NCBI GenBank assembly: GCA_947627195.1
Contig: CANQVC010000016.1
Location: 1 to 32,990, forward strand
Length of the DNA: 32,990 nucleotides
DNA from: an uncultured Bacilli bacterium
GTDB lineage: Bacteria; Bacillota_I; Bacilli_A; ML615J-28; CAG-698
Direction of reading: 5' to 3'
Both the position numbers and the translations under genes were made by a program. Below, one piece after another: positions 3,564 through 27,896 of the stretch. The notes under the pieces were generated by a model, which ran no database searches, had not been told where the DNA came from, and worked only from the letters and a program-made list of their open reading frames with translations. How positions within the stretch are numbered: position 1 is the first letter of the stretch; the number at the start of each line of letters is the position of its first letter.

Positions 3564-3566
3564 ACA

Positions 3567-3899
3567 CTACTCCTTTATTTCCTTATTTTTTTCTTTCATA
3601 GATTTTTTATCGTTCTTTTTTATCCCTAATGCAATTAAAATTTTACCCTCTGAATTTTTTCTCTTCTCTACACTTTTAATTCCACCAATTTTTCCATTTT
3701 CTCTTGCTATTTTATCATTATCAATTGTCACTTTAATTAAATCGAACAGGCATTTGATATTTTTATCTGAAATGTCTGGCTCTTTTTCTTCAAATGCATA
3801 ATAGCATATATATTTTATTAACTTACCCACTTTTTTGTCGCTCATTGTTTTAATGGCATTTGCAAAACTCATTCTAAATTTGAAATTTTTTTCTTTCAT
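3567..3899 (-). CDS. Small protein resembling the N-terminal domain of replication-associated proteins (DUF6291-like)
   Basis: A 110-residue basic protein with a good SD (AGGAAAAAT before ATG 3899), 11 nt after the ArdC gene. The pattern FKFRMSFANAIKTMSDKKVGKLIKYICYYAFEE, followed by a segment about DIxDxxxxCLFDLIKVTID and a Lys/Asn/Gly-rich ENGKIGGIKS stretch, resembles a small helical domain found in phage and plasmid proteins linked to replication initiation (the DUF6291 type). In those the GxxGG linker commonly leads into a further DNA-binding region, whereas this protein ends in a charged Lys-rich tail. The family assignment is from memory of the pattern, and function is unknown. Confidence 0.6.
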   Translation of the reverse strand: MKEKNFKFRMSFANAIKTMSDKKVGKLIKYICYYAFEEKEPDISDKNIKCLFDLIKVTIDNDKIARENGKIGGIKSVEKRKNSEGKILIALGIKKNDKKSMKEKNKEIKE

Positions 3900-3910
3900 A
3901 TTTTTCCTTT

Positions 3911-5566: not shown

Positions 5567-5687
5567 TTACAATTTTAACCTCCTCAATCGACACATCCTT
5601 GTCCTTTACTATATCATCAATTTCATATAAATCTTCTAATTCATAATCCATTGGAAGTACTATTTCTCTTTCTTTATCGCTGTTCAT
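5553..5687 (-). CDS. Small acidic protein (44 residues), translationally coupled
   Basis: ATG at 5685-5687 comes one nucleotide after the TAG stop of the giant gene (TAG-T-ATG), with AAGGGAG as SD inside that gene's last codons. The frame ends at TGA 5553-5555, inside the ArdC gene. The product is strongly acidic in the middle (PMDYELEDLYEIDDIVKDKD) and ends in VKIVIEKK. The tight coupling on both sides and the good SD support it as real. I recognise no family. Its size, charge and place between antirestriction-associated genes would fit a DNA-mimic or a small partner of a neighbour, but that is speculation. Confidence 0.6.
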   Translation of the reverse strand: MNSDKEREIVLPMDYELEDLYEIDDIVKDKDVSIEEVKIVIEKK

Positions 5688-5688
5688 A

Positions 5689-11600: not shown

Positions 11601-14064
11601 TGCCATCAATTTCTGTATAACAAAATTCCTTAACACTATAATCTACATCAATTTTTAATTCATCATTTATTATAGGTAATGGATTATATATATCAGAAGG
11701 AAGATTTTCAATTGCTTTTTTCAATGATTCTTCTAAAGAAACATCATTTTCTTTCACCGTTAATGAATTAGCTCCATATAACCCTATTTCTTTGTCCAAT
11801 GTACCTAAAATCATATCCTTATGTAATAAGAAATATTGATTAATATTAAAATCATCAAAAACTTTAGCTGTTGAAAGCCAATCACATTCATCATTTGATG
11901 GATATATTATTTCTTCTCTCTTTTGAAAAAATAAAATATCAGCTACAACAGATGTATTCGCATATTTTTTAAAAGCTGAATTAGGTAATCTTATTGCACC
12001 AAGTAATTTAGCACGACTAGCAATATATTCTCTAGCGCTAGGATTTAATTTATCCATTGTTCCTTTGCTAGTGACAATAGCAACTATTCCTCCACTTCTA
12101 ACCTTATCAATACTTTTAGCAATAAAATAATCATGAATTAAAAAATTATATTTATTATAATCAGTATCATATACTTGATATCCACCAAATGGTACATTTC
12201 CAACAACTAAGTCAAATGAATTATCCAAAAAATTGGTATCTTCAAAACTTTTGATTAATATTTGGGCATCTGGATATAATTTTTTTGCTATTTTTCCAGT
12301 AACATTATCTAATTCAACTCCATATAATTTTGATCCATTACGAATACTATCTGGCATATAGCCAAAAAAATTACCTGTTCCTAAAGACGTTTCTAGAATT
12401 TTGTTATTATTTCTAACACCAAATCTTGCAAGTGCACTATAAATAGCATTAATTATTTCTTTAGGAGTAAAATAAGCATTTAAAATACTTCCCTTGGCTC
12501 TTTCATAATCTTCTGCACTAAGTAAATTTTTTAATTCAAAATGTTCTTTATGCCACTTTGAATTTGTTTCATCAAACGGATAAGGTATTCCACCCCAACC
12601 AATATATTTCGATAAAATTTTTCTTTCATCAAGCGTCGGATTTCTATTTTCTTGATATAATAAATTAGATAATTTTATTGCATCAATATTATTTTTATAT
12701 CTTTGCTTTGCTCCACCCAATTCATTGCTTATATCATCTATATTACTATCATCTTTTTCTTCGTTTATTTCTAAATTGTCTATATAATAAGGAACATATT
12801 GAGAATAGAATACTAAATCAATACCATCATCTAATATTTCAGCACTAGCTATTTCATTTTTTTCATTTAGATAATATTCAAAAACATGAATATTATCTTT
12901 TATAATTGTTATATCATTTTGAAATTGTGAAAATGGTGTATACCAAGAAAGTGTCGTTGTTTTCTTGATACCTTCTTCAACTAAATCATTTACTATTTCT
13001 TTTAGTTTTTTACTATCTTCGCTATTATTTTCTTCAAAAAGATAAACTGGGAATTTTTCTTTTTCTTCTTCTGTTAAATAATTATCCAAATCAATCATCA
13101 AAGAAATTTTTTCTGCTACTTCTTTCCAATTTAAAAATACACTTACATTATCTTCTTTATGATTTATATCATGATTTTCTAAAAACAAACCTTTCGCATC
13201 TGAATTTAATTGATAAATTGAGCCATACTTTCCACCTATTCCATATTCATTTTTAATAAATTTTATAAAATCTGATTGAATTAAATTTTTTTGGTATTCA
13301 TTATAAATTCTTAGCTTTCCATTTACAAATCCACTACCTTGTTTAATTCCCCATTCAATCAATTTTTCAATGTTACTTTTTTCTTCAGTCGAAAAATCAA
13401 ATATGGTAATTGCTTTTTTATTACCTTTTTTATTTGTTTTTTTCTTTTTCTCGGTAGGCTCTTCTTGCTTTTCCGTAGAAATTGTTTTTATTAATTCATT
13501 TTGTTTTATTTTTTCTAGTTCATTTTCCAACTTTTGAGTAAGTTCATATATTTCTTTAAATAGATTGGCATTTTCTTTTAAAGAAAAAGGGAAAGGATGT
13601 AAGTAAATAACTTCATCATCCTTTATCTTAGATTTTATATATAAGGAATAACTTACACCCTCTACAATTAATTCATCTTTTAAAAAATGATTATATAATA
13701 AATGATTTGTTTGAAAAAAATTTTTTACATTTTTATAGATTTTCCTATAATCGCTTAGATAATAATTTATTTCAAGATTTGAATTTAATATATCAAGAGA
13801 TGAAATAAGATTAGAAGTTGATGGATAAATTTTTAAATACTTTGTTTCTCCATATGTACTGTTTTCATTAAAAACAAATTTTTTATTTCCATCAATATCA
13901 TAATACAAAATTCCTTTGTGTCCACTTTTTATTCTTCTTTCCATAGCATTCCATTCTTCAAAAGAATAACAAATACTTAAATTTTTATCTTTAATAAAAA
14001 TTTCAGCTACATCATGTAGAGAAAGATGACGATTTAAATTAACAAATTTATAAAATCTTTTCAA
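5689..14064 (-). CDS. Giant polyvalent protein: N6-adenine methyltransferase, SNF2-type helicase, repeated modules, primase-polymerase-like tail
   Basis: This ~2,790-residue protein is of the type that large conjugative elements and phages inject or express early to protect and process incoming DNA. In order: an N-terminal domain with CYSFEEWNAMERRIKSGHKG (about 32-51), typical of large polyvalent proteins; a Lys-rich linker (~205-218); an N6 methyltransferase with catalytic NVPFGGY in the NPPY position (~621); and a SNF2-like helicase with HHVVGAGKTYT (~1238), FVDEAHF (~1402), ATGTPISNSMTEMY and EQREGRIIRQGN (~1740). Coiled-coil stretches follow (~1800-2000), then three related ~100-residue modules near 2178, 2288 and 2381. 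A primase-polymerase-like part has ICAIDLDHSID (~2570) and a C-terminal NGDVFKALYEG domain (~2693). The TTG at 14064 has no SD. In-frame codons run on upstream to an ATT at 14118 six nucleotides after GGGGTGA, so the true start may be there. Confidence 0.88.
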   Translation of the reverse strand: MKRFYKFVNLNRHLSLHDVAEIFIKDKNLSICYSFEEWNAMERRIKSGHKGILYYDIDGNKKFVFNENSTYGETKYLKIYPSTSNLISSLDILNSNLEINYYLSDYRKIYKNVKNFFQTNHLLYNHFLKDELIVEGVSYSLYIKSKIKDDEVIYLHPFPFSLKENANLFKEIYELTQKLENELEKIKQNELIKTISTEKQEEPTEKKKKTNKKGNKKAITIFDFSTEEKSNIEKLIEWGIKQGSGFVNGKLRIYNEYQKNLIQSDFIKFIKNEYGIGGKYGSIYQLNSDAKGLFLENHDINHKEDNVSVFLNWKEVAEKISLMIDLDNYLTEEEKEKFPVYLFEENNSEDSKKLKEIVNDLVEEGIKKTTTLSWYTPFSQFQNDITIIKDNIHVFEYYLNEKNEIASAEILDDGIDLVFYSQYVPYYIDNLEINEEKDDSNIDDISNELGGAKQRYKNNIDAIKLSNLLYQENRNPTLDERKILSKYIGWGGIPYPFDETNSKWHKEHFELKNLLSAEDYERAKGSILNAYFTPKEIINAIYSALARFGVRNNNKILETSLGTGNFFGYMPDSIRNGSKLYGVELDNVTGKIAKKLYPDAQILIKSFEDTNFLDNSFDLVVGNVPFGGYQVYDTDYNKYNFLIHDYFIAKSIDKVRSGGIVAIVTSKGTMDKLNPSAREYIASRAKLLGAIRLPNSAFKKYANTSVVADILFFQKREEIIYPSNDECDWLSTAKVFDDFNINQYFLLHKDMILGTLDKEIGLYGANSLTVKENDVSLEESLKKAIENLPSDIYNPLPIINDELKIDVDYSVKEFCYTEIDGKIYMRIREKMEEVSIPKSPSDAKERIINMIALRNEIRHLLNLQINGCNDEELNDEQKKLNEMYDNFIKKFGFINNKVNYKLFKDDGDSALLFASEVLSSDKTIAYKSDIFSKRTIRPYSVITKTDDVFTALQISKNERGCVDIFYIATLTEKNCDEVIHELDSAIYRDPDKINLNDKYSGFVTSDEYLSGNIKSKLIKAKAFSKIYPNENYERNIKALESVLPTPIKASEISVRLGASWIDLSYYKDFLVEILNIPYYFKDDLNIFYNKHDSSYRVDFNRSFLRNYHSEKINSLSTSRASAFRLFEDALNLKSTTIYDLVKVDDKDKRVLNQVETLYAREKQNQIKELFKDWIFKDPARRDVLEEEYNNIFNQIRLPLYDGSYLQFPEMNPAIELKKHQKDAVHRIITSGNTLLHHVVGAGKTYTICATIMKLRQYGLAKKPLIVVPNHLVGQWASEFRYLYPNAKLLVTTKNDLDKDNRQKFVSRVALGDFDAIIMAQSSFSKIPISTERQINKIKSEIVKIEATIMNKDKDHNLSHGALKNLERIKKSKETTLKKLLDADNKDNVLIFENLGVDYLFVDEAHFYKNLFLYTKMNNVSGISQAASSRASDLQLKCEYINEIHNADKGVVFATGTPISNSMTEMYTMQTYLQPRTLNELGLTFFDLWAADFGETITSLEISPSGEGYKAKTRFAKFTNLPELLTLYRSFADVKTSEMVKLNVPKATRNVVNLKPSDITVNLAYEIANRAEEISNGGVDPHIDNMLKVTSDGKKLALDVRCFDPSLKDEVGSKINECSFRIYEIYKRTNDFRGTQIVFCDMSTPKCNFSDYVVGQSFDVYNDLKYKLVSLGIKKEEIAYIHEANSDMQKQELFSKVNDGIVRVLIGSTEKCGAGTNVQTRLVALHHLDTPYRPSDLEQREGRIIRQGNMNEEVEIYTYVTERTFDSYSYQILENKQRFISQIDRGDLVIREAMDIDETTLTYAEIKAITAANPKIKRKMELDTEVAKLKVLEGQYKKNLYALQDKVRRDLPEAIKKQELYLERLKKDILLLDKNFHSDNEKFLINVKGINYTDKKDGTIALNDALIQANDNEVVAIYNGFKISLDPVALLTMERSITLNANGIYHLDIGTSAIGNMTRIENFFKDFKLKEEYAIRRLEELNKDLIDAQKEIDVPFEYKEKLEMLEKELIQINQELDLNKKDEVIIEDEQYDKRSFLNNFDRKKEDIILNESQELKIDKTYQNSFHQKITDEFSSFMMEYKNKEALDIVKDSYKINFYKELYQYLTDENTDLEEIQFKALYNQKGKVLESLYDYYLKNEFTSINSYSEINDLIVSYNSRYNDEYMKQNESIEKRKNWITINVPRSALIESYEKHSFFKMPLTNEEYRGYTYNIFNNRIKDGRMITDLKSDSRELCYEIIMEENEEVILNKNNNTKKINAILFKEIVSSSNDKDYYIEKKEKEFVRIDLPIEAMIGKYENASLFKLPNYSMFKDEKYYIPNIFIKESKNGRIEINLPNTFEVELKDKEKSEIKKISPYELFEETSGASLVDFSYKESKTNKRWNTLSLINEARIKKYDEATLFKMPKGKYSFYSYYLPNGLINENDEKFLMVSLPDDFKITLRNQNKETITLSKEEYQNLVVGKSKEDYETELKKPSEKVMEKINQRIEILKKNVPEEMLNRQNWVVVRTKENLEKQRLEKYLIDPNNGSFAKSDDSSTWASFDDACEFLKAKGGVTLAYALDGKDGICAIDLDHSIDENGNYSDLLERVLKSSNNSYAEMSISKIGAHIFGKTIGMDLRSFSMDGDLEFYQKSHFIAMTGDLIGGKNKELNNFDNIDIKDILEKKCNKRVDYNGLKKGVEGLSLISDKEIINKAMNCKNGDVFKALYEGEDIRNNHSNSDMSLMNHLAFWCNGDKEQMIRIFTTSGLFRENKSPDYYESTAIKAIKDVTERYNDGKNKNIGFVKPTSNFKGA

Positions 14065-15634: not shown

Positions 15635-16291
15635 TTATTTATATAATCCCAACTGTCCATTTTTTAGTTCATATATTTTATCAAACATTTTTGCAAATTC
15701 TAGATTATGTGTTACCGTTATAACAGTCACACCTAAATTATTTAATTTTTTTAACATTGCAAAAAGTTGATTGGCATTATCATTATCCAAATTACCTGTT
15801 GGTTCATCCGCTAATACTAATTCAGGATCATTAATCATGGCTCTTGCTATAGCAACTCTTTGTTGTTCACCTCCTGATAGTAAATTAGCCTTTTTATTTA
15901 GTAATGACTTAATCCCCAATGCTTCAGCTATTTCATTAACTTTATAATTATTTGACTGTTTTTTATTAAATATAGTAGGTAAAATTATATTTTCTTCAGC
16001 AGTTAAATTTCCTATTAAGTTATATTCTTGAAATACAATCCCTATATGTTTGTTTCTAAATTCAGCCAATTCATCATTTGATAATTTTTCTAAATTTTTC
16101 TCATCAAAAATGTAAAATCCTTTAGTTGGTTTATTTAGAGTAGCTAAAATTTTTAATAATGTTGTTTTCCCACTACCACTTTTGCCAATAATTGCAATTA
16201 ATTCACCTTTTTGAAATTCAAATGATAAATTATTTAGAACAAAAGTTTTATCATTATCATAACTTTTATATATATTGTTTAGTTTATACAT
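15635..16291 (-). CDS. ABC transporter ATPase subunit (MacB/LolD type; bacteriocin-export-like)
   Basis: A 218-residue complete nucleotide-binding subunit: Walker A GKSGSGKTT (~36-44), signature [15 protein letters not shown] (~138-152), Walker B LVLADEPTGN (~159-168) and a switch histidine in TVTHN. The LxADEPTGNLD form is typical of MacB/LolD/FtsE-type ATPases that serve FtsX-like permeases, including those of lactococcin 972-type bacteriocin loci. It starts at ATG 16291 with GGAGGG upstream and lies 12 nt after the second permease gene, last of a five-gene operon. It probably energises the two permeases. Whether the complex exports the secreted neighbours, or confers immunity to them, is inference. 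Confidence 0.85.
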   Translation of the reverse strand: MYKLNNIYKSYDNDKTFVLNNLSFEFQKGELIAIIGKSGSGKTTLLKILATLNKPTKGFYIFDEKNLEKLSNDELAEFRNKHIGIVFQEYNLIGNLTAEENIILPTIFNKKQSNNYKVNEIAEALGIKSLLNKKANLLSGGEQQRVAIARAMINDPELVLADEPTGNLDNDNANQLFAMLKKLNNLGVTVITVTHNLEFAKMFDKIYELKNGQLGLYK

Positions 16292-16303
16292 TATTCCCTC
16301 CTT

Positions 16304-17416
16304 TTAGATGATTTGTTTATATTTTATAAATCTAGTTGATATGGTTGTCAAAATTATTGGAACCATTATAATTGCAATTAGCGTTAAGAAAAATTTAGGA
16401 ATTGATGCCATTGCAAACGTTAAACCTTTTGATGCACTAATTGCAATTAGTGAAATAAACATTCCTATAAAAATTGACAATATAGCTGAAATAACACTTA
16501 TTATTGACATTTCTATAATGATCATCTTCCTTAGATGTTTTAATTTCATTCCTAATGTACTTAAAATGGAATAATATTTTTTTCTTTCTGCTATCGATAA
16601 ATTTATAGATATATATATATTGAAAAAGGAAAATACAGAAACTAATATAAAAAACGTAACTGGTATGTTAGAAAACATCATAAATTCTTCCATCTGACTA
16701 TCAAATATTTTTTTATATGAATCTACAAAATATCTTGAATCAGGTGCATTATAAATCATTGATATTGTATTAATAACTTCATCTTCATTTTGATTACTTG
16801 TAATATAGTATGTATCAATTATATACTTATAAATTCCAGAGTCATTATTAATTATTGACATATCCACATATTGCCCATAAATATCTAATGTTGTTATAAC
16901 TATGTTTTCATTCAAACTTTTTTCTAATATTTTAATAAATCCGCCTACTTGGTATTCTATTCCGTTAATTTCAATTAAGTTATTATTAACTGAATTCTTT
17001 AAATTTTCACTTAAATATACCAAAGGTTTTTCTGTATCATAGACTTCGCTTAATTCTATTTCGTAATTATAAAGATTTCCATTGTAATAAATTATATTTT
17101 TTTTAATGTCTGTCCCGATGATCATACAGTCATAATCATATGAGACTATTCCCGTATTATAAACATAAGGTATTACATAATCAAATTCTTCTTTAAATCT
17201 TTCATAATAATTAACTGGAATATTAGAAAAACGCTCTTCATTTACATATGAGATATATTCTCCTTTAGAAAGGGCTAAAGACTTACTAACACTATGTTCA
17301 ATAGATGCAATATAAAAAAGTGAAAAGACTAGTGCTGAACCTGCTATAACAAACGAAAAAAGACTAAAAAATAATTTTTTACTAATGTTTTTTAAACTCA
17401 ACTGGAATATAGTCAC
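16304..17416 (-). CDS. FtsX/MacB-like ABC permease (second)
   Basis: A 370-residue membrane protein with one N-terminal transmembrane segment (about 14-36), a ~210-residue extracellular domain, and three C-terminal transmembrane segments (roughly 248-272, 300-330, 340-362). This is the FtsX/MacB layout. GTG 17416 begins two nucleotides after the TAA of the first permease, and the SD GGAAG is inside that gene, so the two are coupled. With the first permease it would form a heterodimer driven by the neighbouring ATPase. The family is clear from topology and context; the substrate is unknown. Confidence 0.75.
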   Translation of the reverse strand: MTIFQLSLKNISKKLFFSLFSFVIAGSALVFSLFYIASIEHSVSKSLALSKGEYISYVNEERFSNIPVNYYERFKEEFDYVIPYVYNTGIVSYDYDCMIIGTDIKKNIIYYNGNLYNYEIELSEVYDTEKPLVYLSENLKNSVNNNLIEINGIEYQVGGFIKILEKSLNENIVITTLDIYGQYVDMSIINNDSGIYKYIIDTYYITSNQNEDEVINTISMIYNAPDSRYFVDSYKKIFDSQMEEFMMFSNIPVTFFILVSVFSFFNIYISINLSIAERKKYYSILSTLGMKLKHLRKMIIIEMSIISVISAILSIFIGMFISLIAISASKGLTFAMASIPKFFLTLIAIIMVPIILTTISTRFIKYKQII

Positions 17417-17418
17417 CT

Positions 17419-18651
17419 TTAGTCTTCCTCCATATAAAAATCAATTGGTTTTTTAATACTAATACATGAAATAATTATATTTATTAAAGAAGAAACAAGA
17501 ACAAATATTACGACTAAACTAAAACTCAATAATATAACATACTTGAAATTGACAAACTTTAGAGTTCCACTTATTAGTGAAACAAACAGTAATATAATAA
17601 TGCTCAGTAAAACGGAAATAACAGAACAAATAAGTGATTTAATAAAATTTTCAAATATCGAAAGTCCCATAATTTGTTTATCCTTATAGCCTATTATTTT
17701 ATAAATTCCTGTATTTTTCTTATTGATTTTAAATGTATACAAAGTAATATTAATTAGATTTAAACATCCCAATATTGAAAAAACACTAATAACGCTTATT
17801 ATGATTTGAAAAAAAATTTTCCTACTTATGATATTTTTATAAATCATATCTTCTCTACTTATGAAAATTTCATTTTCTTTAAGTGGGATATCAAAAATTT
17901 CCTTTAATTTATATTTTATTTCCTCTGGCGTCATATTTTCATCACTTATAATAACATCATTATTATAAGTTGGTAAATTCAAAGTATCGTAATAACCATG
18001 TGAAACATAAGCATGCGTTGTATATAAATAATCTGCTATTATTTCTTCACCTCTTTTTTTAGCTAATTCAATACTTTGCTCTCTTTCAATTGTATTAGAT
18101 ACAACTCCCACTATTTCTAAATCACCATAATTTGTGCTAAGCATTTGTCCAACAACATTTTCATAACCAAATAATAACATAGCAGTATCTAAATCTACAA
18201 TTGTAACAGGTTCTATAGTGTCTTTATCCCATTTATTACCATACAATAATTCTAGTTTTTGAACACCTTCATCTGCTTGTTCATGATCATAAATTTTTAC
18301 ACCAGTATTAATAAAATCTTCTGAAACAACATAAAATGAAACATTTTGTCTACCCTTGGCCCATAAATCAAATGAAGATTGCATATGATTTACATATTGG
18401 AATTCATTTTCTACTTTTTTAACTTTTTCTTTTGTAATTTCAAAACCTTGTGGTAAGTATTGAGTTTGATTCATTTCTTCTACTCTAACCGCATTTTTAT
18501 AAAAAATAATACCAGAATCTATTTTATTGATTGAAACACTTCTAAACATTATTAATAAGAAAATAACCATTATTGTAACAAAAAATAAAATATAACTAAA
18601 AATAAATATTTTTAGATTCGACTTTATTCTTTTTAAAATATGTAACAACAT
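17419..18651 (-). CDS. FtsX/MacB-like ABC permease (first)
   Basis: A 410-residue permease with the same topology: an N-terminal transmembrane segment (about 13-36), an extracellular domain of ~240 residues with LEIVGVVSNT, as in MacB periplasmic-core-like domains, and three C-terminal transmembrane segments (about 283-310, 335-360, 372-398). It lies 12 nt downstream of the second secreted-protein gene and is coupled to the next permease. MacB-like systems without a periplasmic adaptor in Firmicutes serve in peptide export, bacteriocin immunity or envelope stress. The direct linkage to two secreted proteins favours a role with them. Confidence 0.75.
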   Translation of the reverse strand: MLLHILKRIKSNLKIFIFSYILFFVTIMVIFLLIMFRSVSINKIDSGIIFYKNAVRVEEMNQTQYLPQGFEITKEKVKKVENEFQYVNHMQSSFDLWAKGRQNVSFYVVSEDFINTGVKIYDHEQADEGVQKLELLYGNKWDKDTIEPVTIVDLDTAMLLFGYENVVGQMLSTNYGDLEIVGVVSNTIEREQSIELAKKRGEEIIADYLYTTHAYVSHGYYDTLNLPTYNNDVIISDENMTPEEIKYKLKEIFDIPLKENEIFISREDMIYKNIISRKIFFQIIISVISVFSILGCLNLINITLYTFKINKKNTGIYKIIGYKDKQIMGLSIFENFIKSLICSVISVLLSIIILLFVSLISGTLKFVNFKYVILLSFSLVVIFVLVSSLINIIISCISIKKPIDFYMEED

Positions 18652-18663
18652 GTAAACTACCTA

Positions 18664-19485
18664 CTATTTTGCGTAATATGATTTTTTTAATTCTCCCATT
18701 ATAAATTCGATATAATTGCTATTTACATCTGGGGCATATGGCGTAGTCATATTTGCCATTTCTGATGGAGTTAAATTTAATTGGTATTCACCATTTTGAT
18801 ATTTATATTTATTTTTATCTGTACTTTTCAAATCATCATAAGAAATTGGCATTAAGTCATAATCGTAAACGAAATAGTATTCTTCGAATACGGGATCATG
18901 AAGAGTTCGTCCTTTCTCAACTTTACCTGTGAATCCACCATATTTTACTTCTTCCAATACATATCTTTCAACCAATTTTATTTCAAGAGATATAACTGCT
19001 ACAGAAAAATAATTACAATCTCTATTGCTAACATTGAATTCCATTTCTTCTCCTTGAGCATGTCGATAACCCCACGCTTGATAATTTTCTAATGCTAAAT
19101 TAATAGAAGCGCCTTCTATTACTTCATAACCAATACTTGTTTTCATTGAATACTCTTTTTCCAATGTGATTGATTCTTCAAATGCTCCAACAATCTTACC
19201 GTTTTTAACTTCTTTAAATGTAGTATTAGTTAAGCCTACAGTATTCACACGTAACTTAGCATATAAATAATACGTGTAATATTCATATTTGTCAGTTCCG
19301 CCAATCCATACGGGAATTCTATTACCCTTTGTATATTTATATGTTTTTTCGATAATCTCATAATCAGTCATATCAGTTCCATAATATCCAGATCCAGCAG
19401 AATATGCATTAACATCGATGTCATTACTTATTATTGTAATAAAAGATAAAGTCAATAAAACAATTATTATTAATATTTTCTTCAT
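18664..19485 (-). CDS. Secreted protein of unknown function (B), paralogue of its upstream neighbour
   Basis: A 273-residue protein with a clear Sec signal peptide: MKK, a hydrophobic core, and a likely type I cleavage after DVNA (residue ~27). The mature part is rich in Tyr, Thr and alternating residues, suggesting beta structure, with one Cys (NRDCNYF). The central region MKTSIGYEVIEGASINLALE followed by EFNV...VISLEIKLVERYVLEEVKYGG lines up by eye with FSVTAKVNDIESGIGVTWSK...TTEV...YAVDAKITEVTYHG in protein A, so the two look paralogous. There are no anchors, so the protein is probably released. SD AGGAG precedes ATG 19485, and the gene is 12 nt after protein A. A secreted effector, toxin or bacteriocin-like protein is a hypothesis; I recognise no family. 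Confidence 0.75.
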   Translation of the reverse strand: MKKILIIIVLLTLSFITIISNDIDVNAYSAGSGYYGTDMTDYEIIEKTYKYTKGNRIPVWIGGTDKYEYYTYYLYAKLRVNTVGLTNTTFKEVKNGKIVGAFEESITLEKEYSMKTSIGYEVIEGASINLALENYQAWGYRHAQGEEMEFNVSNRDCNYFSVAVISLEIKLVERYVLEEVKYGGFTGKVEKGRTLHDPVFEEYYFVYDYDLMPISYDDLKSTDKNKYKYQNGEYQLNLTPSEMANMTTPYAPDVNSNYIEFIMGELKKSYYAK

Positions 19486-19497
19486 TATATCTTCTCC

Positions 19498-20250
19498 TTA
19501 ATCTCCTGAAAAAAACAGTTCACTATTACCGAAATCAGAATTATTATCAATTAGATATTGTCCAGTTTGATAGTTTGGTAGATCGTCGGCTCCTATAAAT
19601 GCATAATACGCTACATATCCAATTGTTGCCCACGCTGATTCATTAGTTGGTGTTTTCCATGTATAACTACTCCAAGAACCAGATGATTTTGTCGATGTAC
19701 CATGATATGTTACTTCAGTTATTTTTGCGTCTACTGCGTATAATGCCATTACAACAAAAGGTGCTGTATAGTCATTTCCAACTTCTGTTGTAATTTTAAC
19801 TCCATTTGCATATCTTGTAGTTTTTGACCAAGTTACTCCAATACCCGATTCAATATCATTTACTTTAGCAGTCACTGAAAAAGTTAATTCATTTGTGTGA
19901 TAAAACTCATCGGTCATAAAAAAAGACATTTTGCTAATACTTACTTGTTCAATATATAAGATAGACCTTTGCATAGTTATTTGTTGTGAACTTAAAACAC
20001 CTGCATATCTTATTCTAAATTTATTTCCCAAATAAATATCACTACAAGTTATAGATCTATTATTGCTCGTCTCACTAAGCTCATAGTAATATCCTAAATG
20101 TTTACTATCTGCAGGATCATTTTTTGAATCATAAGCCGGTGATTTGACACCTTCATGAAAAGTTGTATCAGCTGCATTAATCTCTATACGAGTGCTTCCA
20201 ATAAATAAAGCAATCAACAGCACACATACTACAATAATTATTTTTTTCAT
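19498..20250 (-). CDS. Secreted protein of unknown function (A)
   Basis: A 250-residue protein with a Sec signal peptide (MKKIIIVVCVLLIALFIG, likely cleavage after INA, residue ~26). The mature chain is Ser/Thr/Tyr-rich and predicted mostly beta, with a central stretch similar to protein B (IESGIGVTWSKTTRYANG, AVDAKITEVTYHG) and a Trp-containing SGSWSSYTWKTP segment. There is no lipobox, LPxTG or C-terminal anchor. It is first in the operon, with a good SD (AAAGGAG), behind a ~315-nt structured leader and a strong promoter. Being first and closest to the regulator, it is probably the most abundant product. Function is not recognised; with the ABC genes it may form a secreted antimicrobial or surface-acting system. 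Confidence 0.75.
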   Translation of the reverse strand: MKKIIIVVCVLLIALFIGSTRIEINAADTTFHEGVKSPAYDSKNDPADSKHLGYYYELSETSNNRSITCSDIYLGNKFRIRYAGVLSSQQITMQRSILYIEQVSISKMSFFMTDEFYHTNELTFSVTAKVNDIESGIGVTWSKTTRYANGVKITTEVGNDYTAPFVVMALYAVDAKITEVTYHGTSTKSSGSWSSYTWKTPTNESAWATIGYVAYYAFIGADDLPNYQTGQYLIDNNSDFGNSELFFSGD

Positions 20251-20714: not shown

Positions 20715-20921
20715 TTTTATATTGATATACAAGTTCGAATCCCCCACCTGATTCATAAAATAATTAAAAATGTAGCCGTTAAAATGCAACATTTTGTACT
20801 AAATGATTATCTTTAAAAAGTTCAATAAAATGGATATTTTTATATAAAAAACAGTAAAAAAAGCCCTAAAACAACTAAATTTTAGAGCTTTTTTGGATAT
20901 AAAGCCTATTCTTCCTAGATG
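20715..20921. repeat. Direct repeat, left copy (~207 bp) flanking the RiPP cluster
   Basis: Nearly the same sequence recurs in the same orientation at 27689-27896, with scattered substitutions and small indels. Shared landmarks are ATTTTATATTGATATACAAG, GATTATCTTTAAAAAGTTCA and the terminal CTTCCTAGATG. Both copies hold two hairpins that work as terminators on the minus strand. Here the repeat ends the RiPP operon; no tRNA follows this copy. Confidence 0.85.
20862..20889 (-). terminator. Terminator of the RiPP operon, inside the left repeat
   Basis: On the minus strand AGCUCUAAAA pairs with UUUUAGGGCU (one U-G wobble) around an 8-nt loop, followed by a U-run. It lies about 130 nt after the nucleotidyltransferase stop. 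Confidence 0.75.
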
Positions 20922-21020
20922 TATAAACACTATTAATAAAATTTAGGATATACAAAAATGTGTCCAACTTTCTTGAGTAAGTCCAGTCCATCTATAATAC
21001 ATATTAATATATAAAACAAT

Positions 21021-22505
21021 TTATTTTATAATAAGAGGATTATTCCAAAATGGAACTAATAAAAACAGTGGAACTAATTTTAAATCATTTAATTCATATA
21101 AAACAATATTCATCCCAATTGGTTTTTTACTATTAATTTCTAAAATATCATAGTAAATTTTTATTTTTATTTTTTCATCATATTGAATAATTTTTACTTC
21201 GTTTTCTTTATATTTAATTGCTTTTTTTTCCATTTCTTTATCATAATGATTTACTCCTCTAGGCAAATATGTTCCAGATAAATATATATTTCTTTTTTCA
21301 TATCTTACGACTATAGACCTATATGGAGCAATAAATTGACCATATATATCATAATAAAATAGTTGAACCTGCATAATATAATTCAAATTAAAATTCAATT
21401 TATCAAATTCAACACAAAGCGATTTTTTTTTTGGAAAAATCTCAATTTCATTATCTCCTTTTTTAAAAAACGGAATCAAGCCAACCATTTTATTATAATT
21501 ATTACAATTATTATCCAAAAAAAACTTACCTTTCATATGATTTCTATAGAATTCTAAAACTTCATGTTTAAAAATAAACCTACTTATTATTGGACAATCG
21601 AAATTACTTCTATAAGAATTTATATTTAAAATATTATTTTTTTTAAAGATATCCTTAATTATATCGGTGTTATAAATTTCAGAAATAGTATGTATTACTA
21701 AATTCAAAGCATCTTTTAAATCATTTTTACATATAATTTCATAAAATTTTGTCCAATTTAAAACACTTTGATATTTAGTGATAAATTCATATAAATCTAC
21801 AATGTATTGTAATGTATGTTTATTTCTATATTGTAAATAGTACATATTTTCAATGTATTGATATAAATATAATATTAAGTTTGCGAAAGTTATTTCTAAT
21901 GAAAAAGTTTTGCAAATTTCATTTTTTACTTTAACTTCAATTAAATTTTCATATGATTTTAGTACATAATGAACAGGCGTTTTAACTTCTATACAATAAA
22001 TAATGTTATTTAAAACAATTTCAATTTTATACTCACCCATAAAAATAGTATCTGTTAAAGATGTATCAAGATTACTTTTAAAACTATTATATAAAATATT
22101 CCTAACTTTTTCAAAATCATTAAAGTCATTTAAAATAATATCTATATCTGAATAAGTTCTTTTAATATCATTGTAAATTAAACTTTCTAATATATATCCT
22201 TTATATACAATAAAATTAATATTATTTTTATTTAACAATCTAACCAGTATTTCTAAAAAATCTATATATTTTCTTCTTTTGGTCTTTTCATTAAAAAAAA
22301 TAGCTTTTAACTTATTGCTCTCATTTGGCAATAAATTATTTTGAATGATGTCATTACAATAGTGCAATAACAATTTATGTTCAATAATGGTTTTTATTAC
22401 ATCATCAGAACAAAATTCATTATTTATATAAAATTCATTTTCAGTGATTAAATCAATTTTATTTCTAATTAAATTAATTATAAAAAAGCCTGCAAAATCA
22501 TTCAT
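21021..22505 (-). CDS. Nucleotidyltransferase-like protein of the RiPP cluster (NTP_transf_5 type)
   Basis: A ~494-residue protein. Residues about 100-140 read FIVYKGYILESLIYNDIKRTYSDIDIIL in pattern: a K-G, then R-x-YSDIDI, in which the paired Asp (SDIDI) is the metal-binding motif of the nucleotidyltransferase fold in the family often found in lasso-peptide and other RiPP clusters. The C-terminal ~180 residues have a beta-rich appearance (YDIYGQFIAPYRSIVVRYEKRN) and are unrecognised. I chose ATG 22505 (MNDFAGFF), which overlaps the previous stop by 8 nt; the frame opens further up at 22532. In phosphorylating lasso clusters this family accompanies an HPr-kinase-like enzyme, as here. A tailoring role on the peptide is inference. 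Confidence 0.7.
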   Translation of the reverse strand: MNDFAGFFIINLIRNKIDLITENEFYINNEFCSDDVIKTIIEHKLLLHYCNDIIQNNLLPNESNKLKAIFFNEKTKRRKYIDFLEILVRLLNKNNINFIVYKGYILESLIYNDIKRTYSDIDIILNDFNDFEKVRNILYNSFKSNLDTSLTDTIFMGEYKIEIVLNNIIYCIEVKTPVHYVLKSYENLIEVKVKNEICKTFSLEITFANLILYLYQYIENMYYLQYRNKHTLQYIVDLYEFITKYQSVLNWTKFYEIICKNDLKDALNLVIHTISEIYNTDIIKDIFKKNNILNINSYRSNFDCPIISRFIFKHEVLEFYRNHMKGKFFLDNNCNNYNKMVGLIPFFKKGDNEIEIFPKKKSLCVEFDKLNFNLNYIMQVQLFYYDIYGQFIAPYRSIVVRYEKRNIYLSGTYLPRGVNHYDKEMEKKAIKYKENEVKIIQYDEKIKIKIYYDILEINSKKPIGMNIVLYELNDLKLVPLFLLVPFWNNPLIIK

Positions 22506-22971
22506 TATTTTTAATTCCATTCCCATTAACAATTTTATTTGATAATTCTAATATTTTTTCTTTATTTTTTGATATACGTTCAACATATTCTCTTGGCTTC
22601 TTTGCATATAATTCAGCAATATCACATGATAATTCACAAATCATATTTATAAAATGATGATACTCTAATTGAATATTTTCAATGGAGTATAAATATCCAA
22701 TAATATTGTTTTTATCATTATTGCTATCATATGTGACTGTAAAATCACCTTTTGTAATTACATTATTATTCTCAACCTTTACAACTCTATGTATCTTAAA
22801 GAAACTATCCGAATAGACTAAAACAATATCTCCTTTTTTAACTTCATCAATATATTTTTTAATTGTGACTTTACCCTCCTGCACCCAAGGAATCATACAT
22901 TCACCAGAACATGTAAAAGGGATTGTTCCAAATTTATTTATCATAAATTTCATTATATTTAACTCTGACAT
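22498..22971 (-). CDS. S24/S26 signal-peptidase-like protein with Cys at the nucleophile position
   Basis: A 157-residue protein with a peptidase S24/S26 core. GECMIP (23-28) occupies the place of the GxSMxP box, KKGDIVLV (45-52) and KIHRVVKV (59-66) are the usual following strands, and TKGD (73-76) contains the general-base lysine (K74). The catalytic serine is replaced by Cys25. No transmembrane segment is obvious, unlike a normal signal peptidase I. ATG 22971 has the SD TAGGTGA and begins 4 nt after the exporter's stop; a longer start at 23025 would overlap the exporter by 50 nt. In RiPP loci such proteins are candidate leader peptidases. With Cys it may act as a Cys-Lys dyad, or it may be inactive. 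Confidence 0.75.
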   Translation of the reverse strand: MSELNIMKFMINKFGTIPFTCSGECMIPWVQEGKVTIKKYIDEVKKGDIVLVYSDSFFKIHRVVKVENNNVITKGDFTVTYDSNNDKNNIIGYLYSIENIQLEYHHFINMICELSCDIAELYAKKPREYVERISKNKEKILELSNKIVNGNGIKNNE

Positions 22972-22975
22972 TTTT

Positions 22976-24745
22976 TCACCTATAATTTTCAGCTTGTTTA
23001 TTAAACATTTCACAGTATTTACCATTTATATTTATTAATTCATCATGTGTTCCACTCTCTAATACTTCCCCATCTGAAATGAAGAAAATTTTGTCACATT
23101 TTCTAACATTCGATAATCGATGTGAAATTAAAATCATAGTAGTATTTTTTATCTCATTCAAAATTAAATTATTTAAATTATATTCCACTATAGGATCTAA
23201 AGATGCAGATGGTTCATCTAAAATCAACAAACCAAATTTTTTTGTAAATAATCTACAAATTGCGAATAATTGTAATTCACCACCTGACAATTCAAGTCCA
23301 TCTTTATGAAACTCTTTCGTTAAATATGAATCTAATGTGAACTCACCCTTTTTCATTACTTTATCAAAACCAACTAATGCAAAAATTTCATTAATTTCTT
23401 CATCAGTGATTTTATCATTGTAAAACTTCATATTTTCACGAACTGTTAATGAAAAACTAACACTTTTTTGAAAGGCAACGCCTACATTATTTCTATAATT
23501 ATTAAGATCCAAGGAAGCAATAGGCTCATTATTTATAAATATTGATCCTTCTTCTGGATCATATAATCTCAATAATAAATTAGTTATTGTTGTTTTACCT
23601 GCTCCATTTTCGCCAACGATTGCTACTTTTTGTCCCTTTTTTATATTAATATTAATGTTGCTTAATACATAAATATCTTTATATTTAAATTTTAAATTTT
23701 TTATTTCAATACTAAAAGGTAACTCGTTAATTTGGTTTGTATTATGAGAATTTTCAATATATGAAATAGTATTAAAAAAATTATAGATTCTTTCGCCATA
23801 TAGTGAAATATTTTGAAAATTAGGAATAATCTTTAAAAAATTAGTCAATTGGTTTTTTAATGTAGTTGCTGATACAATTAATGCAGCAAAATCAGCAATT
23901 TCTATACCTTGATTATTTTGAATTCTATAACATAAATAAATAATTGTACATCCCATAAAAATGTAAGTATTTAGAAATTCTAATATACCTAATATAGTTA
24001 ATTTAACTTTGTATTTATTAGCTACCTTAACTAATTCATCAGTATTTTCATCAAATTTTTTATTTAAAATTTCTGAAGCTTCCGTAGTTTTAATAACTGA
24101 TGCATAATCCTTTAAATAATATAATCTATTAATATATCCGTGTCCCCTATTATACAAAATAGATTCATTATTTTTATTATAATGTAGTTTGGTAATTTTA
24201 GATGATAAAATTGTGGCAATAATTACAGACATCACAGAAAACAGAATCACAATCCAATCCATACTAATCATTAAAATAACCAGAGATATTATTGTAATCA
24301 AAGAGGAAATTAAATTCCAGATAAATCTTGCTGCAGCATGAGATTGATTTACTAATTGATTTACTGTCCAAGAATAATTATCATAGAATAAGTTATCATC
24401 AAAATATTTAAAGTCGGTAACACTTATTTTATCAAATATTTCTTTATTTATATTTGAACGTATTTTTACAATTAATTTTTCTCCCAAATATATTTCTATA
24501 ATATTGCTAATAACATTTATAAATAACATTAAGCCCAATATTAATGAAACACCAATGATTACTTTATATAAAGGAATATTAATAGATGCAAGTGAAAATT
24601 TTAAAAGATAAATATCAAGAACAGTAAATAACGGAGTAAATAAGCAAGTAACAATTATAAAAATAAAAAAGCTTTTACCATATTTAAGAAAAAATGATAA
24701 TAGATACGTAAAATTTTTAAACATTTTTGTTGATTTGGTTTTCAT
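22976..24745 (-). CDS. ABC exporter (fused membrane and ATPase domains) for the RiPP
   Basis: A 589-residue type-1 exporter half-transporter. Six transmembrane segments lie in the first ~320 residues, followed by an ATPase with Walker A GENGAGKTT (~378-386), signature LSGGELQLFAICRLF (~487), Walker B LLILDEPSASLD and a switch ISHRLS. There is no N-terminal C39 peptidase domain, so leader removal must be done by another protein; the neighbouring S26-like protein is the obvious candidate. AAGGAG precedes ATG 24745. It probably works as a homodimer in the cytoplasmic membrane, exporting the modified peptide. Confidence 0.88.
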   Translation of the reverse strand: MKTKSTKMFKNFTYLLSFFLKYGKSFFIFIIVTCLFTPLFTVLDIYLLKFSLASINIPLYKVIIGVSLILGLMLFINVISNIIEIYLGEKLIVKIRSNINKEIFDKISVTDFKYFDDNLFYDNYSWTVNQLVNQSHAAARFIWNLISSLITIISLVILMISMDWIVILFSVMSVIIATILSSKITKLHYNKNNESILYNRGHGYINRLYYLKDYASVIKTTEASEILNKKFDENTDELVKVANKYKVKLTILGILEFLNTYIFMGCTIIYLCYRIQNNQGIEIADFAALIVSATTLKNQLTNFLKIIPNFQNISLYGERIYNFFNTISYIENSHNTNQINELPFSIEIKNLKFKYKDIYVLSNININIKKGQKVAIVGENGAGKTTITNLLLRLYDPEEGSIFINNEPIASLDLNNYRNNVGVAFQKSVSFSLTVRENMKFYNDKITDEEINEIFALVGFDKVMKKGEFTLDSYLTKEFHKDGLELSGGELQLFAICRLFTKKFGLLILDEPSASLDPIVEYNLNNLILNEIKNTTMILISHRLSNVRKCDKIFFISDGEVLESGTHDELININGKYCEMFNKQAENYR

Positions 24746-24755
24746 TTTATACTCC

Positions 24756-25539
24756 TTATAAGTCTAATTTTTTCAAAAGAACTCTAAAATTATCAAAAGA
24801 TGTAAACATAATATGATATGCTTCATCGCTTTTAGTAATATTTATTATTTTATTGAATTTTTCATCATTATTCCTTGAATATCTAGAATTTTTTAATAAA
24901 TTATCAAAAAATTCCTTATTAGACATTTTACAAATTATATTTTTAGTATCGTTATATTGAATAAATAAAAAAACTTTTTTGTAAGTACAACTTTTTTTTA
25001 GTATTTTTTGTAAAATATAAATATCTAGCTTTTTTGTCATCATCTATGACTTCAAAAGCATCCGTCAATTCATTACGTAATCTTATTGGAAAATTCAATC
25101 CTATTACATCATTATTATTTAAAATAACACAATCATCATCAATTAATACATAATCATCATTTTTTGTCAAATTATATACTACTGTTGTTTTTCCGCTTTT
25201 TCTTGGTCCTAATAAACATATAACTTTATTTTTATATATCAAACTTGCTCCATGTAGCACATAGCATCCTAATTTATTAATTATATATTTTTCTATGTCA
25301 TTTATCAAAAAAAACATCCATTTTTTATCATTTATTGAAGTATAAATATAATTTTCTTTATTTTTTCCCTTTTTATTTTTTCCTATGATAATCATATCAT
25401 CTGTAACTTCAATCACATCTTTTTTTATCCATCTTTTAAAAAAATAATCAAAAAATAATGGATTTTTATCTAATATTTCATCTTCTATATAGAAAGAAAA
25501 ATTAATATTCTTTATTATATTACAATAACAATTACTCAT
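24756..25539 (-). pseudogene. HPr-kinase-like protein, split by a frameshift at an A6 run
   Basis: Two overlapping frames make up one ~260-residue HPrK-like protein. The first (195 codons from ATG 25539) has YVLHGASLIYKNKVICLL then GPRKSGKTT (Walker A, 111-119) and LIDDDCVIL, as in HPr-kinase-like enzymes (His97 before the P-loop). The second, in another frame and ending at 24756, carries the normal continuation LDIYILQKILKK...FFDNLLKNSRYS. Five A residues instead of six in GACAAAAAAGC (25027-25037) would fuse them. The start overlaps the PqqD-like stop by 8 nt. In lasso-peptide clusters such kinases phosphorylate the C-terminal Ser of the precursor, and the precursor here ends in RSS. The shift may be a real mutation, transcriptional slippage or a sequencing error. 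Confidence 0.7.
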
Positions 25540-25843
25540 AACTAATCAATATCCTTAATTCAATCATGTCTTTAATAGTTTTAAGAATATCATAATTTAA
25601 TGACTTAAGGCTTTCTTCATTTAAAATAAAGTGCTTTTTATACTGTTCCTCTATATCTTCAACAAATAAAATATCAGAATTACTATTTTTAATTAAATTC
25701 CACAAAAATAAACATGTTGAATTCATAACAATTATTCTATCTAATTCTTCATCATAAAAATAACCTTCGTTATCAATTTCGTCACAAACAATTTTAGAAT
25801 TTAAGGTCACATTGATTTGTGCATCTTTAATTGTAATTTTCAT
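25532..25843 (-). CDS. PqqD-like RiPP recognition protein
   Basis: A ~103-residue stand-alone RiPP recognition element. YDEELDRIIVMNSTCLFLWNL has the PqqD pattern (beta hairpin, then aliphatic 'N-x-T-x-xxLW' helix), followed by VEDIEEQYKKHF and a C-terminal helix (ILKTIKDMIELRIL). It would bind the precursor's leader and present it to the radical SAM enzyme encoded just upstream. I placed the start at ATG 25843, which has AAGGAG eight nucleotides upstream; the frame opens slightly earlier but that codon falls on the SD itself. It overlaps the radical SAM gene by 17 nt, so the partners are made together. Confidence 0.8.
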   Translation of the reverse strand: MKITIKDAQINVTLNSKIVCDEIDNEGYFYDEELDRIIVMNSTCLFLWNLIKNSNSDILFVEDIEEQYKKHFILNEESLKSLNYDILKTIKDMIELRILISYE

Positions 25844-27209
25844 AATTATCACTCCTTTTTATTTTGTAAATTGAAAACTCATCAGATGTATCTATGTTTA
25901 GTTTTTCTAATTCCCATCCTATATATTTTTCATTTTCAACTAAATGATTTAATACTATTTCCCAATATTTTTTTATTTCATTACATTCCCAATTAGATGC
26001 ATAACTATATTCATCAGAACTATTCTTTAATGGACATCCAGAGCCACAAAATGGAAAAGCAAAACACGATTTACATTTTTCAATATTATTCATAAAAATT
26101 TCTGCATTTAAATCATAATATTCATTTAATATAATATTGCCGTTACTAATCGTTCCCAATAATGTTGCTTTATCTTTTGCATCTAAACAAGTAACTACTT
26201 TGTTATTTGTAATTAACCAAGGATTAAATCCTAAAATAGTGCCACATAAAAAATCAACTTTAGAATCTTTAAATTTACCACACGTTAATATCTTGGGTAA
26301 GTTATGGTCATAAATATATTCTTTTAACGCTATATAATGTGATGATAATTTATAATTATCTAATTTATTATTACTGCTTTTAAAATCAGCATTAAATTTA
26401 GCTCTACCTATTGGTGCGACTGGTTCAATATCCCAATTTCGAATTTTAGAATATCTATTTATAATGAACAAATACATATCCTTAATTTTTTCAAAATCTT
26501 TAAGCCATATTGTAGACCTTAATTCTACTATAATATTTTTATCCATCAAATATTTAATTGTATTATCAACAACATCAAATGATTTTTCTCCATTATATAC
26601 TTTTCTGTTTTGGTTTTGAAAATATTCGTTTCCATCAAATGATACCAAAACATAGTCTAAATTTTCAGAAATAAATTCTAATTGTTCATTATTTAAATAT
26701 CCATTGGTAGTCATATTTATATATGCTTTTACACCAGCATGTTTCTCTTTTGTTCTAATATATAAAACACATTTTTTTAATAATTCAAAATTTAAAGTAG
26801 GTTCTCCTCCACCTGCAAAATAAAAACTAACATATTCTATGTTATTAGAGATTTTTTGTCGTAAAATAGCATTTCTAAATATATAATCAACAAAAACTCT
26901 AACACTATCATACTCTAAAGTTCTACCCTTATCTGATGAAGAAAAAGAGCAATAATTACATCTGAATTGGCAAAGATCTGTCAAACATATCCCTGCACTA
27001 TTTGGATATATATAATTTAATTTTAATTTCTTTTTATCAAATCTTTTATCAATATATTCATAGTTATTAAATCTTTTTTCTTTCGAATCATCCAACATAT
27101 TAATTAAAGATTCTAATTTATGAAAGTCAATATTTACAACATTTCCTTTTATAATATATAAATATTCATTTAAAAATATAGAATTATCATTAATTTTAAA
27201 AATATTCAC
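25827..27209 (-). CDS. Radical SAM/SPASM peptide maturase
   Basis: A 460-residue enzyme. CQFRCNYC (Cys80, 84, 87) is the CxxxCxxC motif for the SAM-binding [4Fe-4S] cluster; FYFAGGGEPTLN follows as the SAM-contacting GGEP segment. The C-terminal third is Cys-rich: CGKFKDSKVDFLCG, then CLDAKDK, CKSCFAFPFCGSGC and a final WEC, which fits a SPASM domain binding two auxiliary clusters. Such enzymes install thioether or carbon-carbon crosslinks in ribosomal peptides (sactipeptides, ranthipeptides). The first ~60 residues are a leader-interaction-like extension. The start is GTG 27209 with GAGGAGG upstream. Neighbours (Cys-rich precursor, PqqD-like protein, exporter) make it the core modifying enzyme. 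The crosslink type cannot be read from sequence. Confidence 0.9.
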   Translation of the reverse strand: MNIFKINDNSIFLNEYLYIIKGNVVNIDFHKLESLINMLDDSKEKRFNNYEYIDKRFDKKKLKLNYIYPNSAGICLTDLCQFRCNYCSFSSSDKGRTLEYDSVRVFVDYIFRNAILRQKISNNIEYVSFYFAGGGEPTLNFELLKKCVLYIRTKEKHAGVKAYINMTTNGYLNNEQLEFISENLDYVLVSFDGNEYFQNQNRKVYNGEKSFDVVDNTIKYLMDKNIIVELRSTIWLKDFEKIKDMYLFIINRYSKIRNWDIEPVAPIGRAKFNADFKSSNNKLDNYKLSSHYIALKEYIYDHNLPKILTCGKFKDSKVDFLCGTILGFNPWLITNNKVVTCLDAKDKATLLGTISNGNIILNEYYDLNAEIFMNNIEKCKSCFAFPFCGSGCPLKNSSDEYSYASNWECNEIKKYWEIVLNHLVENEKYIGWELEKLNIDTSDEFSIYKIKRSDNYENYN

Positions 27210-27232
27210 TTTATCCTCCTCAAATTTAAAGC

Positions 27233-27530
27233 GTATAGATGCATAATATAATTAATTTTTATTAATTTAAGATGATCTTGTTGTACAATAAGAAGCTGCA
27301 CCACATCCTGCTGAATTTGCAAGACATGATTGTGAACCTACAGCCCCAGTTTGACACGAAACTGCTTGACTAGAACATGTGATTGCACCAGATGAACAAG
27401 AAACAGAAGCAGCGTATGCCTCATATTCTCTTATTAAATTTCCTTCATAAACTGCCATATCAGGCGTAACATAATTTTCCATTTTACCTCCAAATAATAA
27501 TTACCAAAACATTTTTATATGCATCTATAC
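27233..27530. repeat. Perfect 13-bp inverted repeat flanking the precursor gene
   Basis: GTATAGATGCATA (27233-27245) recurs as its reverse complement TATGCATCTATAC (27518-27530). The pair encloses only the precursor gene and its SD; the promoter (27579-27607) and the maturase gene are outside. It could form a long-range mRNA stem or be the ends of an invertible or exchangeable cassette. Confidence 0.6.
27267..27482 (-). CDS. Cys-rich RiPP precursor peptide
   Basis: A 71-residue peptide. Residues 1-23 (YVTPDMAVYEGNLIREYEAY) form an acidic, likely helical leader. The core is Ser/Ala/Gly/Cys-rich with six cysteines at 29, 36, 43, 53, 60 and 66. The spacings are 7, 7, 10, 7 and 6, each Cys preceded by Ser, Thr, Gly or Tyr, in repeats such as SCSSGAITCSSQAVSC. 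The C-terminus is TTRSS. GGAGGT precedes ATG 27482. It sits first in the operon, under its own promoter, directly upstream of a radical SAM/SPASM enzyme, so thioether crosslinking of the six Cys is the likely modification. It differs from the SCIFF/thermocellin type, which I expect to be shorter with a different Cys pattern. The exact leader cleavage site is not evident. Confidence 0.85.
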   Translation of the reverse strand: MENYVTPDMAVYEGNLIREYEAYAASVSCSSGAITCSSQAVSCQTGAVGSQSCLANSAGCGAASYCTTRSS

Positions 27531-27553
27531 TTTTTGGATTTTATTTTGGTAAT
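27500..27553 (-). promoter_or_regulatory. Stem-loop in the precursor mRNA leader
   Basis: ATTACCAAAA (27500-27509) and TTTTGGTAAT (27544-27553) form a perfect 10-bp stem with a 34-nt loop, ending about 12 nt before the SD. It contains one arm of the 13-bp inverted repeat, so the two pairings compete for the same region. Confidence 0.5.
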
Positions 27554-27556
27554 AGT

Positions 27557-27572
27557 GAAAGTTTATACTTTC
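27557..27572. promoter_or_regulatory. Palindrome at the transcription start of the precursor gene
   Basis: GAAAGT-TTAT-ACTTTC is a perfect palindrome covering about +1 to +16 of the predicted transcript, a usual place for a repressor operator. No regulator gene is in the cluster. Confidence 0.45.
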
Positions 27573-27578
27573 AACAAC

Positions 27579-27607
27579 ATTGTAACATATTTTTAATTTT
27601 TATGCAA
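27579..27607 (-). promoter_or_regulatory. Promoter of the RiPP operon
   Basis: TTGCAT (-35) and TACAAT (-10) on the minus strand, 17 bp apart, give a transcript with a ~90-nt leader before the precursor gene. Confidence 0.7.
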
Positions 27608-27688: not shown

Positions 27689-27896
27689 TTTTATATTGAT
27701 ATACAAGTTCAAATCCCTCTGATTCATAAAATGATTAAAAATGCAGCCGTTAAAAAGCTACATTTTGTCCTAAATGATTATCTTTAAAAAGTTCAATAAA
27801 ATGGCTGTTTTTATATAAAAAACATTAAAAAAAGCCCTAAAACAACTAAATTTTAGAGCTTATTTGGCTATGCAGCCTTTTCGTTCTTCCTAGATG
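27689..27896. repeat. Direct repeat, right copy (~208 bp), downstream of tRNA-Gln
   Basis: Second copy of the repeat at 20715-20921. Homology ends in TAGATG at 27896, inside the CCA end of tRNA-Gln, so the repeat corresponds to the 3' flank of that tRNA. In this copy the first hairpin (AAAATGCAGC with GCTACATTTT) is fully paired in minus-strand RNA through a G-U wobble. Confidence 0.85.
27833..27860 (-). terminator. Terminator of the rimO/tRNA-Gln transcript, inside the right repeat
   Basis: The same AGCUCUAAAA/UUUUAGGGCU hairpin with U-run as in the left repeat, about 35 nt after the tRNA. Confidence 0.7.

Follow-up and report, generated by a model that had tools for sequence, protein, structure and literature searches.

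The window analysed here is a whole stretch of 32,990 nt (contig CANQVC010000016.1) from an uncultured Bacilli bacterium, and all coordinates are positions in it. It contains a small bacterial gene cluster on the minus strand, with all of its named features between 20922 and 27607. The genes form an operon that starts with that of a putative precursor peptide (at 27482), continues with those of a radical S-adenosylmethionine (SAM)/SPASM maturase, a small PqqD-like protein, an HprK-like kinase, an MsbA-like ABC exporter and a SpI-type leader peptidase, and ends with that of a nucleotidyltransferase (at 21021; Table 1). The ends of maturase and PqqD-like genes, PqqD-like and kinase genes, exporter and SpI genes, and SpI and nucleotidyltransferase genes overlap or nearly touch. 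Terminator-like sites are frequent in the region (five versus 0.7 expected), and the cluster is bracketed by rho-independent terminators. Because of these overlaps and flanking terminators, the cluster can be considered as one unit. A previous sequence-only reading had proposed it as a new family of ribosomally synthesized and post-translationally modified peptides (RiPPs). A RiPP cluster combining a SPASM maturase with lasso-type tailoring genes it indeed appears to be, but the accessory set is the core of a published system, the linear polyphosphorylated peptide (LPP) clusters (PMC13381572). Since nearly all helper genes match that set, we regard it as a variant of a described system and not as wholly new.

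The precursor, MENYVTPDMAVYEGNLIREYEAYAASVSCSSGAITCSSQAVSCQTGAVGSQSCLANSAGCGAASYCTTRSS, carries its cysteines at positions 29, 36, 43, 53, 60 and 66, with gaps of 7, 7, 10, 7 and 6. The near-heptad spacing noted earlier thus holds in its regularity, except that the last gap is 6 and not 7. When six cysteines are placed randomly in the 47-residue core, three or more gaps of 7 arise in 0.2-0.3% of trials; in a looser test, which counts any gap length of at least five that recurs, the figure is 1.3%. Of the 69 small open reading frames (ORFs) of the window (40-120 aa), no other is rich both in cysteine and in serine, alanine and glycine. The core has few aromatic residues, and the gene is preceded by a good ribosome-binding site (TTGGAGG, in TTGGAGGTAAAATG). 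No Pfam or NCBIfam family model matches the precursor.

The maturase is a SPASM enzyme, as had been recognized: its CxxxCxxC motif (residues 80-87) and seven SPASM cysteines (322, 341, 379, 382, 388, 392 and 409) are invariant in an alignment of 24 homologues. An AlphaFold model built from this alignment (predicted local distance difference test, pLDDT, 76; predicted template modelling score, pTM, 0.79) places the CteB entries 5why/5wgg at ranks 1-3 in a Foldseek search. With VIA-align, the model superimposes on CteB 5wgg with a Z-score of 27.8 and a root-mean-square deviation of 4.3 over 389 residues (model residues 1 to 433), the N-terminal segment included. In this segment, residues 1-67 are predicted with moderate confidence to form three strands followed by three helices, the order of a RiPP recognition element (RRE). 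On the basis of the CteB-like predicted fold and the cysteine-rich core, thioether formation by this enzyme is a reasonable inference. Apart from a remnant in a sister species (genome G001), no close relative turned up among about 1,000 genomes, sampled from the whole-genome set at levels from family to phylum, or in viral contigs. A scan of 85,000 species, limited to the single pattern [GHY]GGEP[TL][LV][NAE][FW][EDK], yielded at best 28% identity; the loci of these distant relatives are devoid of the accessory genes and their cysteine-rich small ORFs are differently spaced.

The accessory genes were assigned with profiles made from LPP-like loci of the same class and two loci of the same order, with no window sequence included, and searched against the 75 ORFs of the window. 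The SpI, nucleotidyltransferase, HprK and PqqD-like profiles each had a single match there, the corresponding operon gene; after refinement the HprK profile additionally matches an ABC ATPase weakly. The presence of a PqqD-like protein, a nucleotidyltransferase and an S26-like peptidase, all previously noted, is thereby borne out; that of the exporter, noted as well, is borne out by its Pfam and NCBIfam matches (Table 1). The kinase call holds for its motifs and profile match, but the gene is frameshifted as assembled. Its 5' part is 40% identical over 63 aa (E 2e-12) to the kinase of a same-order locus (L106), and both halves match the family colinearly. SpI keeps the His, Arg and GD motif in the alignment. 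Plasmid searches with SpI and the nucleotidyltransferase gave no matches, and searches of PDB sequences with the PqqD-like protein and SpI returned nothing meaningful.

LPP clusters are exemplified by lppA-K-B-S-D-N of Paenibacillus alginolyticus (Popov et al. 2026, PMC13381572). There, LppK polyphosphorylates Ser3 of the core, and LppS, a SipW-like S26 protein, is the peptidase that removes the leader presented by LppB; the leader motif is YxxPxVLxHQxIxFETxxS and the peptide is otherwise linear (PMC13381572). The two systems have in common a SpI-type leader peptidase, a discrete RRE, an HprK-like kinase, a nucleoside triphosphate (NTP) transferase, an MsbA-like exporter and a YxxP leader, and both are devoid of a lasso cyclase and a B2 protein. 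The cluster differs in its additional radical SAM/SPASM maturase and six-Cys core, a Cys nucleophile in SpI, the frameshifted kinase and a partial leader motif, of which YxxP is present and the remainder absent. With no catalytic Ser, a disrupted kinase frame and an incomplete leader motif, the cluster is not filed outright as an LPP member; the maturase furthermore argues against a linear product as in LPP. Radical SAM enzymes are not mentioned in the main text of PMC13381572.

Other known systems resemble the cluster in part. Paeninodin-type lasso clusters, as described in PMC13381572, share the discrete RRE, HprK-like kinase, NTP transferase and exporter. A lasso peptide cluster was rejected since the operon has neither lasso cyclase nor B2 protease (Pfam and NCBIfam scans of its genes). 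The absence of the cyclase had been correctly noted, but the supposed absence of a protease was an error, as leader removal in LPP systems is the task of the SipW-like S26 protein. With the SCIFF/ranthipeptide systems (CteA/CteB, PapA/PapB) the cluster shares a SPASM maturase of similar predicted fold and six cysteines in about 40 residues. It differs from them in the cysteine gaps, in a separate RRE with LPP accessory genes, and in a maturase that scores far under the TIGR03974 and NF047865 cut-offs. Going by the names of their NCBIfam models, the SynChlorMet and HPr-rel-A cassettes, defined earlier by bioinformatics, also combine HprK-like and PqqD-like proteins, SynChlorMet with SPASM radical SAM proteins in addition. 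The window proteins fall short of both sets of models; the kinase of a related locus (L192) matches ScmC at 43 bits (cut-off 125).

The explanation that we favour, with somewhat better than even confidence, is a RiPP operon of the LPP type that acquired a radical SAM/SPASM maturase resembling CteB, together with a six-Cys precursor; the product is probably a Cys-crosslinked secreted peptide. From the directly established gene content, family assignment, operon structure and motifs, the following scheme can be imagined. The discrete RRE would bind the YxxP leader, as probably would the RRE-like segment at the maturase N-terminus. With SAM and its auxiliary clusters, the maturase would crosslink the regularly spaced cysteines to nearby residues as thioethers, with a loss of about 2 Da each. 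By analogy with LppK, the kinase would phosphorylate a serine of the core close to the new N-terminus, and the nucleotidyltransferase may attach a group to this phosphate. The SpI-like peptidase and the RRE would then remove the leader, as LppS and LppB do, and the exporter would secrete the product. Because the kinase is frameshifted as assembled, this strain may have lost the phosphate branch or may rescue it by slippage. It is a more tentative, and on the whole rather doubtful, proposition that a single leader/RRE/SpI system serves both the thioether maturase and the HprK/NTP-transferase branch, to give a crosslinked and phosphorylated or nucleotidylated peptide with its leader cut by a signal-peptidase-like enzyme with a Cys nucleophile.

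Related loci place this combination in context. Among 40 loci of the same class that were retrieved with SpI as anchor, 19 carry the set SpI, HprK, PqqD and nucleotidyltransferase; the gene order HprK-PqqD-SpI recurs, with the PqqD gene likewise placed between the kinase and SpI genes. In L192 (G060:C193, 6138-9266) and L197 (G095:C43, 6226-9961), a radical SAM/SPASM gene lies directly upstream of HprK-PqqD-SpI-nucleotidyltransferase. These enzymes, however, are of about 340 aa and of another subfamily (best matches AhbD/NirJ-like), and no Cys-rich precursor is seen beside them. Within the same order, L105 (G037:C48, 2170-9970) encodes a radical SAM enzyme, a lasso-type B2, PqqD, an HprK-like kinase, a nucleotidyltransferase and two ABC exporters, with a candidate precursor of 34 aa, MKRSYVKPTIVSFGMLETFILTGKTKKGCKTCGC, ending in KKGCKTCGC; L106 has a kinase, nucleotidyltransferase, exporter, B12-type radical SAM enzyme and truncated SPASM-SpI fusion. 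Recruitment of radical SAM enzymes to the cassette therefore recurs. The combination had been described as unusual; given the adjacent genes in L192 and L197, and the PqqD-like protein and kinase of L105, it is uncommon but not unique. Only in this cluster was a CteB-like maturase seen together with a six-Cys precursor. Several SpI-anchored loci have short YxxP precursors with an acidic EIWG-like tail. In L139, L140, L146, L151 and L152, small ORFs beside LPP-like genes share the conserved leader YxxPx[VIL]E[VI]xEFxLxxSIAxS, followed by a short core with EIWG or a similar sequence at its end; they are likely LPP-type precursors of this class.

Several observations weigh against the favoured explanation. 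The RRE match is weak (PF05402 alone gives E 0.11), and a single-sequence fold of the PqqD-like protein is poor (pLDDT 54) and has no useful structural match. The precursor leader has M where V, L, I, F or A is usual; outside YxxP, its likeness to the leaders of related loci falls short of significance (p 0.03 by shuffling), and its score is reached by 17 of 923 unrelated small ORFs. A relative with the same precursor was not found. Two further points, the +1 frameshift that splits the kinase gene near 24973-25000 and the Cys nucleophile of SpI, where all other aligned homologues except the G001 remnant have Ser, can also be taken as signs that the cluster is already decaying, with a dead kinase, a possibly impaired peptidase and only the exporter kept, perhaps for self-protection or general efflux. 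Such decay has run far in the sister species G001, where L008 (G001:C21, 1552-4836) is a copy of which the exporter alone is intact. Precursor, RRE, kinase and most of the maturase are gone; the exporter is left among a promoter fragment, a maturase scrap, and SpI and nucleotidyltransferase genes broken by frameshifts and stops. The exporter is 93% identical, with a nonsynonymous rate (dN) of 0.027, a synonymous rate (dS) of 0.24-0.30 and a dN/dS of about 0.1, indicative of purifying selection; it may have been kept for protection. In the window, however, the ORFs of precursor, maturase, RRE, exporter, SpI and nucleotidyltransferase are all intact. The kinase frameshift lies among A8, A6 and T7 runs and could be a real mutation, an artefact of assembly or a site of slippage, and the Ser-to-Cys change of SpI predates the species split, since the Cys is present in G001 as well. 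Decay in the present strain seems fairly unlikely. LPP clusters are gained and lost patchily (PMC13381572), and the state of G001 fits this pattern.

A different chemistry also has to be considered: the maturase might introduce another radical modification (a C-C or C-O crosslink, epimerisation or oxidation), the cysteines later forming disulfides or being otherwise modified. Behind CteB, the next structural neighbours of the model are anSME, ChlB, TigE and SuiB; several of its neighbours (anSME, TigE, SuiB and EpeE) are SPASM enzymes with other chemistries, and the maturase reaches no cut-off of a thioether family. With CteB as the best whole-chain structural match, and a core of six regularly spaced cysteines and few aromatics, we hold this to be unlikely. 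Membership of the PapB, SCIFF or CcpM families was rejected on the NCBIfam scores (107.3, 71.1 and 83 bits; cut-offs 340, 425 and 500), and although PapB, a ranthipeptide maturase, is the best named match and the kinase is broken, a plain ranthipeptide or sactipeptide cluster, in which the peptide is not a substrate of the kinase and nucleotidyltransferase, is improbable in view of these low scores and of five accessory genes in one overlapping operon, a cassette recurrent in the class.

Table 1. Features of the cluster and its borders (window positions)
Feature	Positions	Strand	Basis or remark
Precursor, 71 aa, six Cys, Ser/Ala/Gly-rich core, leader YxxPxM (YVTPDM)	27267..27482	-	ORF and composition
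Radical SAM/SPASM peptide maturase, 460 aa, GTG start, RRE-like N-terminal segment	25827..27209	-	PF04055 2.5e-15
PqqD-like discrete RRE, probable ATG start 25843	25532..25852	-	profile of syntenic PqqDs E 1.5e-5
HprK-like kinase, 5' part, HG, P-loop and DD motifs	24952..25539	-	profile E 1.3e-11
HprK-like kinase, 3' part, +1 frame	24756..25043	-	weak HprK_rel_A C-terminal match, 209-280 of 280, E 0.088
MsbA-like ABC exporter, 589 aa	22976..24745	-	PF00005 4e-29; MsbA best NCBIfam model, 222 bits, cut-off 602
SpI (S26, archaeal/SipW type) leader-peptidase-like protein, probable ATG 22971	22498..22971	-	profile of nine LPP-like SpIs E 3.9e-18
PF14907 nucleotidyltransferase, SDIDI motif, probable ATG near 22505	21021..22505	-	PF14907 3.3e-14; three-relative profile 1.5e-51
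Intrinsic terminator, operon end	20857..20894	-	within dispersed repeat
Intrinsic terminator, upstream of operon	27832..27861	-	within other repeat copy, beside tRNA-Gln
Dispersed repeat, copy 1	20748..20916	+	91% to 27719-27887
Dispersed repeat, copy 2	27719..27887	+	91% to copy 1
GTATAGATGCATA, 13 bp, 5' copy of inverted pair	27518..27530	-	exact match
GTATAGATGCATA, 13 bp, 3' copy, opposite orientation	27233..27245	+	between precursor and maturase

The borders of the cluster have features of their own. The precursor gene is enclosed by the inverted pair of GTATAGATGCATA, of which two exact copies occur versus 0.13 matches expected (two copies in 0 of 100 shuffles); the pair may be an operator pair, an RNA stem or an inversion site. 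The upstream copy is retained in G001 with one change. A promoter scan of the region gave nothing beyond chance level, and in an Rfam scan the tRNA alone attained its gathering score. The dispersed repeat, of about 170-190 bp with an intrinsic terminator, stands in direct orientation around the cluster; further copies lie at G000:C41:2190-2367 and G000:C17:16134-16303, and a diverged copy adjoins the remnant in G001. Integration targeted to the tRNA was rejected, the 3' end of tRNA-Gln having no second copy in the genome. Positions 151-14064 hold genes of a conjugative element, namely a VirD4-like coupling protein (CD1115 family), a MobP3-like relaxase and an ArdC-like anti-restriction protein, together with a protein of 2791 aa that has methyltransferase and SNF2 helicase domains. 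The cluster is situated between this module and tRNA-Gln/RimO, and may be cargo. Positions 15635-20250 encode an ABC ATPase and two FtsX-like permeases, of which one has weak similarity to bacteriocin-associated 7TM proteins, and next two secreted proteins without family match.

As an LPP-type operon that appears to have gained a radical SAM maturase, the cluster provides a maturase, with a regularly spaced six-Cys substrate, that differ from those of named families, and also a leader peptidase with a natural Ser-to-Cys change. Furthermore, this radical SAM variant suggests that the cassette of RRE, SpI, kinase and transferase is a general chassis able to accept different primary modifications.

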